From: Hymenobacter cellulosilyticus
GTDB lineage: Bacteria; Bacteroidota; Bacteroidia; Cytophagales; Hymenobacteraceae
Direction of reading: 5' to 3'
NCBI RefSeq assembly: GCF_022919215.1
Contig: NZ_CP095046.1
Location: 4,702,501-4,766,500 of the forward strand
DNA: 64,000 nt
Shown: positions 54,534 through 58,972 of the stretch, in pieces
How positions within the stretch are numbered: position 1 is the first letter of the stretch
How the letters are laid out: each line of letters starts with the position of its first letter
The notes under the pieces: model-generated
What the model was told of the DNA's origin: nothing
Seen by the model: the letters and a program-made list of their open reading frames with translations, nothing else
Database searches by the model: none
Translations under genes and position numbers: made by a program

Positions 54534-56378
54534 ATGAGTACACCCCGACCCTACCTACTCTCGGCCGCATTGTTCCTGGCGGGCCTAACCGGCGCTTCGG
54601 CCCAGAATGCGCCGGTGCCCCTGCAGGCCGAATCCGGCACACTTGGCGCTGACTGGACCTCGCCCACGGCGGCCGGCGTAACCTACGTGACGGTAGTACC
54701 CACGGCCACCATTGCCGCCCAGAACCCCGGCACGGCCGCCCGCGTGATTACCTACAGCGTCACTTTCCCCGGTCCCGGCACCTATGACCTCTACGCCCGG
54801 GTGCGGGTGGGAGCCGCTACCGCCAACGACGACAGCTTTTACTACGGCAACGGCTTTGGCACCAAGTCGCCCACCAACGACAACGACTGGATTACCATCA
54901 ACCAGGTGGCTGGCGTGGGCTATACCACCGGCACCCAGGTCGTGGACGGGGCCGGCTCGGCCCAGAGCAACGTCTGGAAATGGGTAAACATGTCTAAGAT
55001 TGGCGGCGCCGAAACCCCGATTTCCTTTACCGTAGCAGCCGGCAGCCTCACCCAGACGTTCCAGGTCGGGGCCCGGGAAGACGGCTTCGATATTGACAAA
55101 ATCGTGTTTGGGCAAACGGGCCTGTATTTCACCGTCAACAACCTCGACAACGGGCAGCAGGGCTCGGTGAATCCGCCACCCCCGCCCTTCACGCCGGTTG
55201 GCCCGCCCATGGCCACGGGCAAGCCTAAGTTTCTGGGCGGCGTACACAGCGCCCCGCAGCTGGCCAACTTCTCGGCCTACTGGAATCAGGTGGTACCCGA
55301 AAACGCCGGCAAGTGGGGCAGCGTGGAAGCTACCCGGGACGTGATGAACTGGACCGAGCTGGACGCAGCCTACAAGCTGGCCAAGGACAACGGCTACCCC
55401 TTCCGCATGCACGTGCTGACCTGGGGCAGTCAGCAGCCCACCTGGATTGCCACGCTGCCCGCGGCCGAGCAGCTGGCCGAAATCAACCAGTGGTATGCCG
55501 CCGTGGCCCAGCGCTACCCCGCCATCGACTTTCTGGAAGTGGTGAATGAGCCCCTCCACCAACCCCCGGGACCCAACAGCGGCGGTGGCAACTACCTTGA
55601 AGCCCTGGGCGGCAGCGGCACCACCGGCTGGGACTGGGTGATTACCTCCTTCCAGCTGGCCCGGCAGTATTTCCCGACTACCAAGCTGATGCTCAACGAC
55701 TACAGCGTCGAAAACACGGCTACCAGCGCCCAGCGCTACCTGGGCATCGTGAACCTGCTCAAGGCCCGCAACCTGATTGATGCCGTGGGCATTCAGGGGC
55801 ACGCCTTCTCGACCCGCGGCCTGCCTGCCGCCGACCTGAACACCAACCTGAACACTCTGGCTTCGGCCGGCCTGCCACTCTACATCACCGAGCTCGATAT
55901 CGACGGCGTGAATGCCCAGAACCAGCTGGATGATGCCGTGCAGCTGGCCGAATACCAGCGCGTATTTCCCGTATTCTGGCTGCACCCGGCCGTGAAGGGC
56001 GTAACCATGTGGGGTTACCGCCCCGGCCACTGGCGCACAGCCCAGGGCGCCTTCCTGGTGAATGATGACAATTCGGAACGCTCGGCCATGGTGTGGCTCA
56101 AGAATTACGTGAAGTCCACCGTGCTGGGGGTATCAAAAGCCGACGACGCGACGGTGAGCCTCTCGCCTAACCCAGCTGTAAACGGGCAGTTCACGCTGCG
56201 GAGCACCGAAACCCTGAGCGCCGTGCGCGTGCTCGACGTGCGCGGGCAGCTGGTGCAGGAAGTCGCTCTGCGCAATCAGTCGTTTGTGAACATGCAGCTA
56301 AATGTGCGCCCTGGCCTCTACGTGGTGCAGCTAATTAATGGGCAGACGGTATCCTCGAAAAAGCTGCTCGTACAATAA
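54534..56378 (+). CDS. secreted GH10 endo-1,4-beta-xylanase with N-terminal CBM-like domain and T9SS tail
   Basis: 614 residues. Signal peptide ends ASAQ, then a beta-sandwich domain (about 25-205: VPLQAESGTLG...DLYARVRVG...DGFDIDKIVFGQ), a Pro-rich linker, and a GH10 barrel (about 225-525). Catalytic residues: acid/base E339 in EVVNEPLH and nucleophile E453 in LYITELDID; MWGYRPGHW is the conserved GH10 end. T9SS tail starts SLSPNPAVN. Extracellular xylan degradation. Confidence 0.95.
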   Translation: MSTPRPYLLSAALFLAGLTGASAQNAPVPLQAESGTLGADWTSPTAAGVTYVTVVPTATIAAQNPGTAARVITYSVTFPGPGTYDLYARVRVGAATANDDSFYYGNGFGTKSPTNDNDWITINQVAGVGYTTGTQVVDGAGSAQSNVWKWVNMSKIGGAETPISFTVAAGSLTQTFQVGAREDGFDIDKIVFGQTGLYFTVNNLDNGQQGSVNPPPPPFTPVGPPMATGKPKFLGGVHSAPQLANFSAYWNQVVPENAGKWGSVEATRDVMNWTELDAAYKLAKDNGYPFRMHVLTWGSQQPTWIATLPAAEQLAEINQWYAAVAQRYPAIDFLEVVNEPLHQPPGPNSGGGNYLEALGGSGTTGWDWVITSFQLARQYFPTTKLMLNDYSVENTATSAQRYLGIVNLLKARNLIDAVGIQGHAFSTRGLPAADLNTNLNTLASAGLPLYITELDIDGVNAQNQLDDAVQLAEYQRVFPVFWLHPAVKGVTMWGYRPGHWRTAQGAFLVNDDNSERSAMVWLKNYVKSTVLGVSKADDATVSLSPNPAVNGQFTLRSTETLSAVRVLDVRGQLVQEVALRNQSFVNMQLNVRPGLYVVQLINGQTVSSKKLLVQ

Positions 56379-56470
56379 GCATTGGACCGTTACCTAAATT
56401 ATCGGTGAGCAATTCATTAATTAATTCAAACCTGATTAATTAAATTCAACGATACTTATTCCGCAACAGG

Positions 56471-56512
56471 AATAGCCGTGTAAGTTAATTACACGGCTAT
56501 TATTTTTTATTT
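56471..56512. terminator. bidirectional intrinsic terminator
   Basis: Hairpin AATAGCCGTGTAA / TTACACGGCTATT with T-run; placed between the convergent GH10 and asnA genes. Confidence 0.85.
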
Positions 56513-56523
56513 AAGCAGACAAA

Positions 56524-57561
56524 TTACAGCAGCTCAATTCCGTTGGCAGCCAACTCCCGGCGCACGGGTTCGGGCCATATGCTCACTTGTACTTCGCCGA
56601 TGTGGGCTTTGCGCAGCATAAACATGCACACCCGCGACTGACCGATGCCCCCGCCGATGCTCTGGGGCAGCGCGCCCTGGAGCAGCAGGCTGTGGAAGTG
56701 CAGGTCCTTGCGCTCGGGGCAGCCGCGCAGCTCCAACTGCCGCGTAAGAGCCGCCTTGTCGACCCGAATACCCATTGACGACACTTCGAAAGCCGTTTCC
56801 AAGACCGGGTGCCAGAGTACGATGTCGCCGTTGAGGCCGTAGTGACCGGCTTCGTTCGGGGTGCTCCAGTCGTCGTAGTCGGGGGCGCGGCCGTCGTGGA
56901 TTTCGCCGTGGCTCAGTTCCCCACCGATGCCCATCAGGAAGATGGCGCCGTACTCCTTGGCGGCTTCGTGCTCGCGCTGCTTGGGCGTCAGGTCGGGGTA
57001 GCGCTGCAGCAGCTCCTCGGCGTAGAGGAAGGTAATGGCTTCGGGCAGCACGGGCTCAATTTCGGGGTACTGCTCACTCACTTGCTGCTCCACGGCTTTC
57101 AGGGCCGCATAGATCTTCTCAACCGTGGCTTTGAGGTAGGAAATCGTGCGCTGCTCGGCTGTAATGTGCTTTTCCCAGTCCCATTGGTCCACATAAATTG
57201 AGTGAATGGGCGAGTAGTCCTCGTCGGGGCGCAGGGCGCGCATGTCCGTCAGCAGGCCCTTACCGGCCTCGATGCCCAGCTCCTGCAGGCGCAGGCGTTT
57301 CCACTTGGCCAGGGAGTGCACCACCACGGCGCGTCGCTCATCCAGGGCCCTGATGGGAAAGTGGACGGGCCGCTCAATGCCGTTCAGATCGTCGTTGATG
57401 CCGGTGCCATCGAGCACGGCAATGGGCGAGGATACTTTCACCAAGTGCAGCTGCCGGCTCAGCTCCCGGGAAAAGGAGTCTTTGACGAAGCTGATGGCCT
57501 CTTCGGTTTTGAGCAGCTCGGCGGGCGCCAGGGTGAGGGAAGTGGTCAGAACGGTTTCCAT
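56524..57561 (-). CDS. asnA: aspartate-ammonia ligase (asparagine synthetase A)
   Basis: 345 residues, normal length for AsnA, which makes asparagine from aspartate and ammonia with ATP. Seen: SSPIAVLDGTGINDDLNGIERPV, ALDERRAVVVHSLAKWKRLRLQELG, HSIYVDQWDWEK, TFLYAEELLQRYPDLTPKQRE, LMGIGGELSHGEIHDGRAPDYDDW and GGGIGQSRVCMFML. It is preceded by an Asn-codon-rich leader ORF and terminator, so attenuation by asparaginyl-tRNA supply is likely. Confidence 0.96.
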   Translation of the reverse strand: METVLTTSLTLAPAELLKTEEAISFVKDSFSRELSRQLHLVKVSSPIAVLDGTGINDDLNGIERPVHFPIRALDERRAVVVHSLAKWKRLRLQELGIEAGKGLLTDMRALRPDEDYSPIHSIYVDQWDWEKHITAEQRTISYLKATVEKIYAALKAVEQQVSEQYPEIEPVLPEAITFLYAEELLQRYPDLTPKQREHEAAKEYGAIFLMGIGGELSHGEIHDGRAPDYDDWSTPNEAGHYGLNGDIVLWHPVLETAFEVSSMGIRVDKAALTRQLELRGCPERKDLHFHSLLLQGALPQSIGGGIGQSRVCMFMLRKAHIGEVQVSIWPEPVRRELAANGIELL

Positions 57562-57686
57562 AGGGGTAGAAGGGTTATGAAGTGAAGGTTTTGCGGGGTA
57601 AGCCGGGACGGGAAAGGCAATAAGAAGCCGTCCGCCCCGAAGGCAGTTTTTTAAATCCGAGAAATTCCCTGACGGGTGGTGAAGGC

Positions 57687-57718
57687 AAAAAAAAAGCCTT
57701 CCGTTATTCGGAAGGCTT
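57687..57718 (-). terminator. attenuator terminator upstream of asnA
   Basis: Hairpin AAGCCTTCCG / CGGAAGGCTT with loop AATAA, followed by nine T on the minus strand. GGAAGGC inside the leader ORF (57763-57757) can pair with GCCTTCC of the 5' arm, giving a mutually exclusive antiterminator. Confidence 0.8.
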
Positions 57719-57742
57719 ACTTACTGAGTTGTTCTTTTTCCT

Positions 57743-57823
57743 TTATATGAACAACGGCCTTCCAGTCTCAAACAAATTATTGTTCGAGTTATTATTAGAA
57801 AGCACGTTATTGAAAAGTTGCAT
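57743..57823 (-). CDS. asparagine-rich leader peptide of asnA
   Basis: 26-codon ORF ATG to TAA with 8 Asn codons, seven of them in the first 15 residues, ending with LSNNNSNNN at residues 8-16. Its last 10 codons hold the segment able to pair with the terminator 5' arm. It stops 25 bases before the terminator stem and lies 180 bases upstream of asnA. The codon bias toward the product of the downstream enzyme is the mark of trp/his/leu-type attenuation leaders. Too short for homology; identified by codons and structure. Confidence 0.8.
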   Translation of the reverse strand: MQLFNNVLSNNNSNNNLFETGRPLFI

Positions 57824-57955
57824 GGCTTGCGCTATTGTCTTTGCATTGCTAAGTAAGAAATAAAATTTTAGACTTCCAACTACTTGCTAAAAAATAAGCA
57901 CAATATTTTTCCAGCACTTAATTACGTACAAACGTGTGTTAGCCGATTAAAACAT

Positions 57956-58666
57956 CTATTCAGCATCGTTGGTCAGACCGTCGCGCACGTCGCGCACGGC
58001 CGCGCTGAGGTAGCTGGGAACCTCGGCTCCGGGCTGTAGCAGCTGCAGCAGGCGCAGGTATTTGGCCCGCCCCTCTTCCAGCATATAGGTTGGCACTTCC
58101 ACTGTGAAGAGGCTAAACGGCTCGACCTTTTGCACCCCAACCAGCAAAAACTGGTCGGCCTGCAGGGCATCGAGGTAAAAGGCTGCCTGCCGGTCGTAGT
58201 CGTAGCCGCTGCACTGGGCCAGAAAGTGGTTGTAGTCGCGGGCCATGGTCGTCTTGAAGTCGATGATGGTGTAGCCCCGGTCGGTTTCGGGCGCTACCAG
58301 ATCGGCGCGCAGCTTGCAGACGGTGTCGGTGGTGGGCTCGGTAAAGATGCAGCTGGGCTCGGGCGTGCCGCGCAGCAGTAAATCATTCAGGTAGGGGTCC
58401 AGCTTCACGCCTTCTACCATCCACCAGATCAGCGAATCGTTGATGCCGGGCTGGCCCGCCTCGTAGAGCTCCGGTTCCAGCAGCGCCGTATGAAACGCCG
58501 TGCCCAGGCCCAGCGCCCCGTTCATGGCCGAGGGCTTCTGGTAACGCCCATTCAGCGCATCACGCAGACGCGAGAGGTCGGAGTTGGCAATGGCGGGCAG
58601 GGCTCGGTAATCGTCGTAGGGCAGGCGCAGCAGATCGGGGCGGCGGAAGGAGTCGGTTGTTGGCAT
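57956..58666 (-). CDS. PD-(D/E)XK nuclease-like protein (RecE/exodeoxyribonuclease VIII-like)
   Basis: 236 residues from ATG at 58666. Nuclease-fold marks: GTAFHTALLEPE with the conserved His, CKLRADLVAPE with the metal-binding Asp, YTIIDFKTT giving the DxK pair, and YDRQAAFYLDAL as the QxxxY motif. This is the DUF3799/putative exodeoxyribonuclease 8 family. No phage recombination partner (RecT) is nearby, so its cellular role is unclear. Confidence 0.82.
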   Translation of the reverse strand: MPTTDSFRRPDLLRLPYDDYRALPAIANSDLSRLRDALNGRYQKPSAMNGALGLGTAFHTALLEPELYEAGQPGINDSLIWWMVEGVKLDPYLNDLLLRGTPEPSCIFTEPTTDTVCKLRADLVAPETDRGYTIIDFKTTMARDYNHFLAQCSGYDYDRQAAFYLDALQADQFLLVGVQKVEPFSLFTVEVPTYMLEEGRAKYLRLLQLLQPGAEVPSYLSAAVRDVRDGLTNDAE

Positions 58667-58972
58667 AGAGAACTGATAACAGCGAGAAGCCGGACAATGT
58701 CCCGGCATTTCTACGATATTTTAGACAAAGCAGTGCTTACTCCGCCCCGCAGGCTTCTATATACAGCTTCGGCAACTCTGCAGCGCCAAGGACTACACAA
58801 CCTATAAGCCACGCGCTTAGCCAGCCCTAATCAACACTAGCCCTGTGTCCGGCTAAAGCAGCACTGCCGCCGCAGTAATTGCCCTTACTTTGGCAGTCAC
58901 GGTGCGTCGGCAAGCTCAGCACGGCGTCCTTTGACTTCGACTTTCCTTTCCGGTTAAGTATTCCTTTGCTCT
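58667..58972. other. intergenic, 306 bases, no feature seen
   Basis: Divergent upstream region of the nuclease-like and GH2 genes. No hairpin, ORF or clear promoter pair was recognised. Confidence 0.3.

Follow-up and report, generated by a model that had tools for sequence, protein, structure and literature searches.

The 64,000-nucleotide stretch of Hymenobacter cellulosilyticus DNA analyzed here (the window) carries asnA on its minus strand and, upstream of this gene, a short Asn-rich leader ORF followed by an intrinsic terminator (Table 1). Converging on asnA is a plus-strand gene (54534-56378) whose protein has a T9SS type A sorting domain and weakly matches xylanase/feruloyl esterase, while the gene upstream of the leader (57956-58708, minus strand) bears a partial likeness to exodeoxyribonuclease VIII (29.5 bits, far below the cut-off of 1269). 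The Asn residues of the leader peptide lie at codons 5, 6, 10, 11, 12, 14, 15, and 16, and the translation contains the LSNNNSNNN that the sequence-only reading had placed at codons 8 to 16. That reading had further described the 26-codon ORF itself, a terminator with 10 stem pairs and nine T, and complementarity between the GGAAGGC within the ORF and the GCCTTCC of the following terminator arm, and all three are present at the places it gave. Segment 1 is supported by the minimum free energy fold of the window sequence and by duplex energies compared with those of shuffles, and its outer part is also backed by pair counts in relatives. The promoter match ahead of the leader is weak in the window.

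Table 1. Features of the asnA leader region, in window coordinates
Feature	Position	Strand	Basis or remark
asnA, aspartate-ammonia ligase, 345 aa, presumed controlled gene	56524..57561	(-)	TIGR00669, 415 bits (cut-off 292.8)
Leader peptide ORF, MQLFNNVLSNNNSNNNLFETGRPLFI	57743..57823	(-)	ATG ORF list; 26 codons, 8 Asn
Segment 1, AATAACGTGCTTTCTA, codon 5 to first base of codon 10	57796..57811	(-)	Pairs with segment 2
P1 hairpin within Asn codons, CTCGAACAA / TTGTTTGAG	57767..57788	(-)	Local folds
Segment 2, TGGAAGGCCGTTGTT	57750..57764	(-)	Pairs with segment 3 across 59 sequences
GGAAGGC, antiterminator half of segment 2	57757..57763	(-)	12 nt past last Asn codon
GAACAAC, could lengthen antiterminator via GTTGTTC (57749-57755)	57728..57734	(-)	Window sequence only
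Segment 3, GCCTTCC, in terminator 5' arm, alternative partner of segment 2	57710..57716	(-)	
Intrinsic terminator stem-loop, segments 3 and 4	57694..57718	(-)	10 pairs, loop 5
Nine-T run closing terminator	57687..57695	(-)	Read from sequence

Among the 378 ATG ORFs of 15 to 45 amino acids on both strands of the window, only the leader ORF has more than five Asn residues, and the codon pattern NNNSNNN, with up to two mismatches allowed, occurs once in the window where none is expected. The 399-nt upstream region is A+T-rich, and an ORF with eight Asn codons arose in 3 of 5,000 dinucleotide shuffles of it; taken alone, such a count is rare but not impossible as a product of chance. Terminator-like sites by themselves are not above chance either, with 3 found and 3.5 expected. 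Since chance can produce both elements, conservation must decide between accident and function.

Conservation is indeed the decisive evidence, and the comparison of 59 of 59 Hymenobacteraceae leaders argues that the leader is no chance product. In the genus, asnA is found in 50 of 120 genomes, and all 50 have an Asn-rich ATG ORF, located about 260 to 310 nt before the gene, together with a terminator based on GCCTTCC/GGAAGGC or a near variant. ORF and terminator likewise stand at nine of nine loci of the sister genus g5, mostly with an NNQNRNNN variant of the cluster on the same plan; this set comprises the eight asnA genomes of g5 in our family sample and Hymenobacter gummosus, which we assigned to g5 by its leader and AsnA. 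The resulting alignment of 59 leaders (A1) holds 350 AAT and 111 AAC codons, with 5 to 11 Asn residues per leader (median, 8). Comparing upstream regions, as the sequence-only reading had proposed, we thus found the Asn codons and the hairpin kept at every asnA locus of the genus and sister genus, and saw no decay of the ORF under a kept stem, the frame being open up to and within the Asn cluster in 59 of 59; both outcomes favor the interpretation given by that reading.

Past the Asn codons, the constraint on the frame changes. Two frames are used through the antiterminator segment, one in 48 leaders and the other in 11, a difference that arises after the Asn codons and alters the downstream peptide, whereas the segment itself is intact. 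The stop codon lies 13 to 82 nt past the start of GAAGGC. On sequence grounds, a frame that is open to the Asn cluster and then free over a kept RNA is a fit for an attenuator and not for a functional peptide. In two leaders (L006 and L008), the early pair of Asn codons is gone and the helical pairing is retained. The 56-codon ORF of L044 reads through its own terminator, which the other 58 Hymenobacteraceae leaders do not do.

The core of the leader is also highly conserved as DNA within the genus, as would be expected if AATAATAACTCGAATAATAAT were a DNA or protein-binding site and the ORF incidental. We regard this explanation as very improbable. An in-frame ATG without an internal stop is present in 59 of 59 leaders, the length of the cluster varies by whole codons across A1, and the P1 pairing described below survives base changes. 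Moreover, the distant leaders of L125, L171, and L117 keep their Asn codons and little of the DNA sequence, scoring 34 to 42 bits with a covariance model (R1) built from A1.

Between the attenuator and asnA of one relative (L016), a stem GGCACGC...GCGTGCC followed by TTTTTT forms a second terminator-like element, and a similar stem can be seen by eye in other main-clade loci. A test of the asnA 5' untranslated region, from terminator to start codon, for a second strong structure showed folding that is not out of the ordinary at most loci (mean z, -0.8; 12 of 59 under -2).

The pairing segments were then judged across the 59 sequences. For the terminator (3:4), 99.2% of cells are paired, and for the antiterminator (2:3), 98.9%, with slid controls of the latter reaching at most 68.0%; as both helices are nearly invariant, covariation is weak for both. 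The 1:2 helix joins the codons before the Asn cluster to GGAAGGC and the bases after it. Over seven column pairs, 88.6% of cells are paired, 29 cells are changed on both sides, and the covariation score is 0.288; for each of these three measures, 0 of 500 shuffles were as high. Slid controls reach at most 57.6% paired, 5 two-sided cells, and a score of 0.116, a comparison that leans in favor of the helix because it was derived from some of the sequences on which it was tested. Column pair 19-86, for example, is GC in 30 leaders, GU in 10, AU in 9, CG in 8, and unpaired in 2. Two of the five covariation measures are not above shuffles, namely, the number of pairs with a two-sided change (4, versus 2.6 in shuffles; 62 of 500 as high) and the number of further pair types (10 versus 9.4; 223 of 500 as high), and pairs 18-87 and 27-82 are unformed in 27 and 14 of the 59 leaders, respectively. 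In energy, the 1:2 duplex averages -15.2 kcal/mol, versus -8.4 for shuffles. In 48 of 59 leaders, no more than 5 of 100 shuffles reached so low an energy, and 0 of 2,000 cross-species permutations were as low as the real set; the shuffles and permutations ignore kinship. RNAalifold alone, run on the 59 sequences, found the terminator and not the 1:2 helix; the helix was taken from single-sequence folds and then tested by pair counts.

All 59 local folds also place a hairpin, P1, within the Asn codons. By eye, it reads CUCGAA..UUCGAG in most of the genus and UCGGAA..UUCCGA in most of the sister genus, changes that we judged to be compensatory from this visual comparison.

The position of segment 2 relative to the Asn cluster is nearly constant. 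In 50 of 59 leaders, GGAAGGC begins 12 or 13 nt past the last Asn codon that precedes it; the remaining leaders have spacers of 16 nt (three leaders), 10 nt (three), 9 nt (one), or 1 nt (two, L028 and L046, which have gained an extra Asn codon there). When the last Asn codon occupies the A site, the ribosome edge, going by toeprints, should lie about 10 to 11 nt beyond that codon, so that a stall would leave segment 2 barely exposed and an advance of one codon would cover it. Judging from position, the edge of the stalled ribosome should therefore fall about where segment 2 begins. Among the distant leaders considered below, segment 2 begins 10 to 15 nt past the last Asn codon in 15 of the 17 scored, the exceptions being the second leader of L245 (23 nt) and L125, in which we found no good segment.

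From this arrangement we infer a mechanism, including its transcription start, translation, stalling, and asparagine response. Transcription would begin just upstream of the leader ORF. With Asn-tRNA plentiful, the ribosome would pass the Asn cluster and at once cover segment 2, and at the stop codon it would rest either on that segment or in the interval before segment 3. Pairing of segment 3 with segment 4 would follow, and transcription would end before asnA. With Asn-tRNA scarce, a ribosome stalled at an Asn codon would occupy segment 1 and melt P1, and would leave segment 2 free to capture segment 3 as an antiterminator; no terminator would form, and asnA would be transcribed. In 58 of 59 leaders (L044 being the exception), the stop codon falls between segment 2 and the end of the terminator 5' arm, which would put the terminating ribosome on segment 2 or between segments 2 and 3, where we assume that it keeps the two apart. 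Family f28 differs in that most of its single leaders have the stop a few nucleotides ahead of segment 2, and the terminating ribosome would cover that segment.

We modeled these states by masking 33 nt for the ribosome on a transcript ending after segment 3. For the window, P(2:3) was 0.46 in the free RNA, 0.99 on average with the ribosome at the Asn codons, and 0.00 with the ribosome at the stop. Averaged over leaders, P(2:3) was 0.66 free and 0.90 stalled (59 leaders) and 0.46 at the stop (58 scored). The stalled value exceeded the free one in only 48 of 59 leaders, and the value at the stop was below the stalled one in 42 of 58; with the ribosome masked at the stop, P(2:3) was at least 0.5 in 28 of 58, mostly where the stop lies about 25 nt on. 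Given the free mean of 0.66 and a 1:2 helix that does not always win, the untranslated state is not clearly predicted to terminate. Within the terms of this model, a free RNA that often favors 2:3, together with the high values at the stop, speaks against the simplest attenuation story. Nevertheless, the attenuation logic of the trp/his type that the sequence-only reading had proposed gains support from the 1:2 covariation, the P1 hairpin, and the 12- to 13-nt spacer, and we consider it very probable that the element works by ribosome-mediated transcription attenuation, with charged tRNA-Asn as its signal and asnA as its predicted target.

To follow the leader beyond these genera, we defined it by rule as an intrinsic terminator preceded by an ORF that has four or more Asn within 10 codons. 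The rule was passed by 71 of 177 asnA upstream regions and by 0 of 885 shuffles of them, 25 loci having been excluded as repeats of genomes already sampled. The passes comprise 48 of 50 loci in the genus, 9 of 9 in g5, 11 of 16 in family f28, and 3 of 102 others, these last belonging to Myroides (L125), Vaginella (L171), and a Bacteroidales genome (L117). In both of the loci missed in the genus, the leader is visible by eye, with a stem mismatch in L011 and an ORF that overlaps the terminator in L044; in family f28, visual inspection leaves the leader of L249 in doubt. Within the family of Hymenobacter, genera g3 and g4 contribute nine AsnA (L051 to L059, 58 to 61% identical), none with a leader before it.

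The Asn-rich leaders of Myroides, Vaginella, family f28, and Bacteroidales are strongly diverged, with R1 scores of 41.6 bits for L117, 36.9 for L171, and 34.0 for L125, and of 26.5 for L114, from Sphingobacteriaceae. Pairing of segment 2 with the terminator arm beat shuffles in 13 of the 17 distant leaders scored, failing in L125, both leaders of L247, and the second of L245. The starts for this test were picked by hand in 18 leaders of 14 loci; L246, with no terminator by the rule, went unscored, and L249 was not entered. An NNF-x-NNN-L/F-like codon pattern, sought in 395 genomes of the class, was matched once in each of five. Two of these (L233 and L234) were rejected as leaders, the former reading as signal-peptide-like in another frame and the latter lying inside a longer frame.

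Most f28 leaders (L238 to L248) are rich in Phe as well as Asn, for example MIINNNFFFFFNHFKF. It is conceivable on this basis that the signal is general translation stress or some other amino acid, such as Phe, and not Asn specifically, and starvation for the residues encoded before segment 2 could also stall the ribosome. Asn, however, is the clustered residue in every leader group, the gene makes asparagine, and the residues between the Asn cluster and segment 2 vary by clade in Hymenobacteraceae. We therefore rate such a broader specificity as quite improbable and retain charged tRNA-Asn as the likely signal.

In a tree built from 176 AsnA, a branch with 98% SH-aLRT support has every one of the 73 leader rows on one side. 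The clade so defined has 83 AsnA, ten of them without a leader by the rule, and the remaining 93 rows of the tree have none. The leader label needs six changes on the tree, versus a shuffled mean of 56.2, and the starred branches force at least two changes, which could be one gain and one loss. For this analysis, L011 and L044 were set by hand as leader-bearing, L246 was kept as lacking a leader despite a visible Asn-rich ORF, and L142 (duplicate protein) and L118 (too little upstream DNA) were left out. A single origin of the leader is favored, not proven, by this quick tree, which has several long branches. As the leader rows come from several orders, asnA and its leader have probably been transferred together.

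Four loci (L117, L241, L245, and L247) have two Asn-containing ORFs before asnA, with a terminator after each. The first leader of L241, which has a GTG start (VKTLNNNFFNTNSNSIRTGRMLF), is similar by eye to the Hymenobacter type, and the AsnA of this locus is 69% identical to that of the window. Pairing is weak in some of these tandem leaders, with 26 and 18 of 300 shuffles as low for the two of L247 and 16 of 300 for the second of L245.

The leader is also found without the gene. R1 gives 55 strong matches, of at least 88 bits, in the 120 genus genomes, the next best scoring 35.7 bits; these include the 50 asnA leaders that went into the model, plus five in genomes without asnA (G118, G116, G100, G112, and G049; loci L196 to L200). 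All five of these orphans have an open leader ORF, a promoter-like TATACTTG, and the terminator, and they are preceded by a gene that matches the window's upstream gene at 67 to 71%. The best tblastn hit to asnA in the orphan stretches examined had an E value of 0.26, and we found no remnant of the gene there. Among the five, identity is 0.86 in the leader ORF, 0.85 in the upstream gene, and 0.44 in the intergenic stretch. Two have lost two of the six core Asn codons, and P1 still folds. A conserved 112-nt stretch begins 56 to 77 nt after the orphan leaders. Its 5' half has no strong match outside the five genomes, and its 3' half matches, in twelve genomes that have asnA, a region about 30 to 40 nt beyond the point where the asnA match stops. 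We rejected this stretch as a new noncoding RNA on account of the latter match, which makes its 3' half probably the old asnA terminator.

That five genomes keep an intact leader unit without asnA, with a leader ORF far better conserved than the intergenic DNA upstream, raises the alternative that the leader-terminator unit mainly encodes a trans-acting short RNA or peptide, cis control of asnA being secondary. There is precedent in attenuator products with a trans role, since the trp attenuator of Sinorhizobium meliloti is reported to yield the rnTrpL RNA and the peTrpL peptide, both acting in trans (PMC7298713). Nonetheless, we find this account improbable for the asnA leader. Of the 55 strong R1 matches in the genus, 50 stand before asnA (with the reservation that R1 was built from those 50 and nine others), the peptide past the Asn cluster shifts in frame and sequence, unlike a conserved trans-acting peptide, and the loss of core Asn codons from two of five orphans is as expected without asnA. 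Cis control of asnA thus remains our preferred reading. Because the five genomes keep the leader, the terminator, and a second conserved stem, an Asn-gated transcript may now act alone there. Speculatively, and with a low likelihood in our own estimate, the Asn attenuator could be a self-contained module that was carried on one AsnA lineage across Bacteroidota orders, became tandem in some, and outlived asnA in a Hymenobacter subgroup, perhaps as a regulatory RNA or controlling the downstream noncoding stem.

All five orphan genomes have asnB. As a second target of the switch, asnB found no support, with at most 2 Asn per 10 codons in the ORFs before 16 asnB-type loci of 13 other genus genomes. 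The asnB profile is matched over its whole length in these 13 genomes; in H. cellulosilyticus itself, the match (G000:C1:2331907-2333591) is split over two frames (profile positions 1 to 154 and 144 to 517), reflecting either a broken gene or a sequence error.

Ribosome-mediated attenuators of amino acid operons are known in trp, his, leu, thr, phe, and ilv classes. With these, the asnA leader shares a leader peptide rich in the product residue, an intrinsic terminator before a biosynthetic gene, and alternative 2:3 and 3:4 helices, to which a candidate 1:2 helix may be added. It differs from them in its Asn codons and its gene, asnA, in the extra hairpin within these codons, and, in Hymenobacteraceae, in having segment 2 inside the coding region. 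Within the phylum, attenuation by leader peptides has been indicated for amino acid biosynthesis operons of Flavobacterium psychrophilum (PMC9723704); these leaders are of the same kind as the asnA leader, but the main text of that report contains neither asnA nor asparagin. Short ORFs reminiscent of leader peptides have also been noted in Bacteroides thetaiotaomicron (PMC7366714). The tandem arrangement recalls the Salmonella mgtCBR leader, which is reported to have two short ORFs (PMC3641672), as do four asnA leaders. In the asnA tandems, unlike mgtCBR, both ORFs hold several Asn codons and a terminator follows each, before an asparagine gene; the window's own leader is single.

Among RNA families, the closest likeness is a weak match of the terminator region to the Rfam Phe_leader (RF01859), at 27.3 bits far below the gathering score of 55, and that family has Phe codons and a Phe gene where the present leader has Asn codons and asnA. 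No Rfam family reached its cut-off in the window stretch or the other loci scanned, and cmscan of 56400-58200 listed no T-box family at E values up to 5. Our searches of open-access literature found no asparagine leader attenuator. This agrees with the sequence-only reading, which had known of no described asparagine attenuator of this form in the genus. With leader-peptide attenuation already indicated in Flavobacterium and leader-like ORFs noted in Bacteroides, and with no asparagine case found in these searches and no Rfam cut-off reached, the kind of attenuator is known, and its amino acid, gene, and RNA family appear to be new.

If our interpretation is correct, asparagine joins the amino acids that are read by leader-peptide attenuators, and Bacteroidota gain a well-defined, testable attenuator with a nearly constant ruler of 12 to 13 nt, which directly predicts where a stalled ribosome ends. 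Leaders of the tandem and orphan types would, in addition, provide tests of how such a switch is duplicated and of its fate after gene loss.
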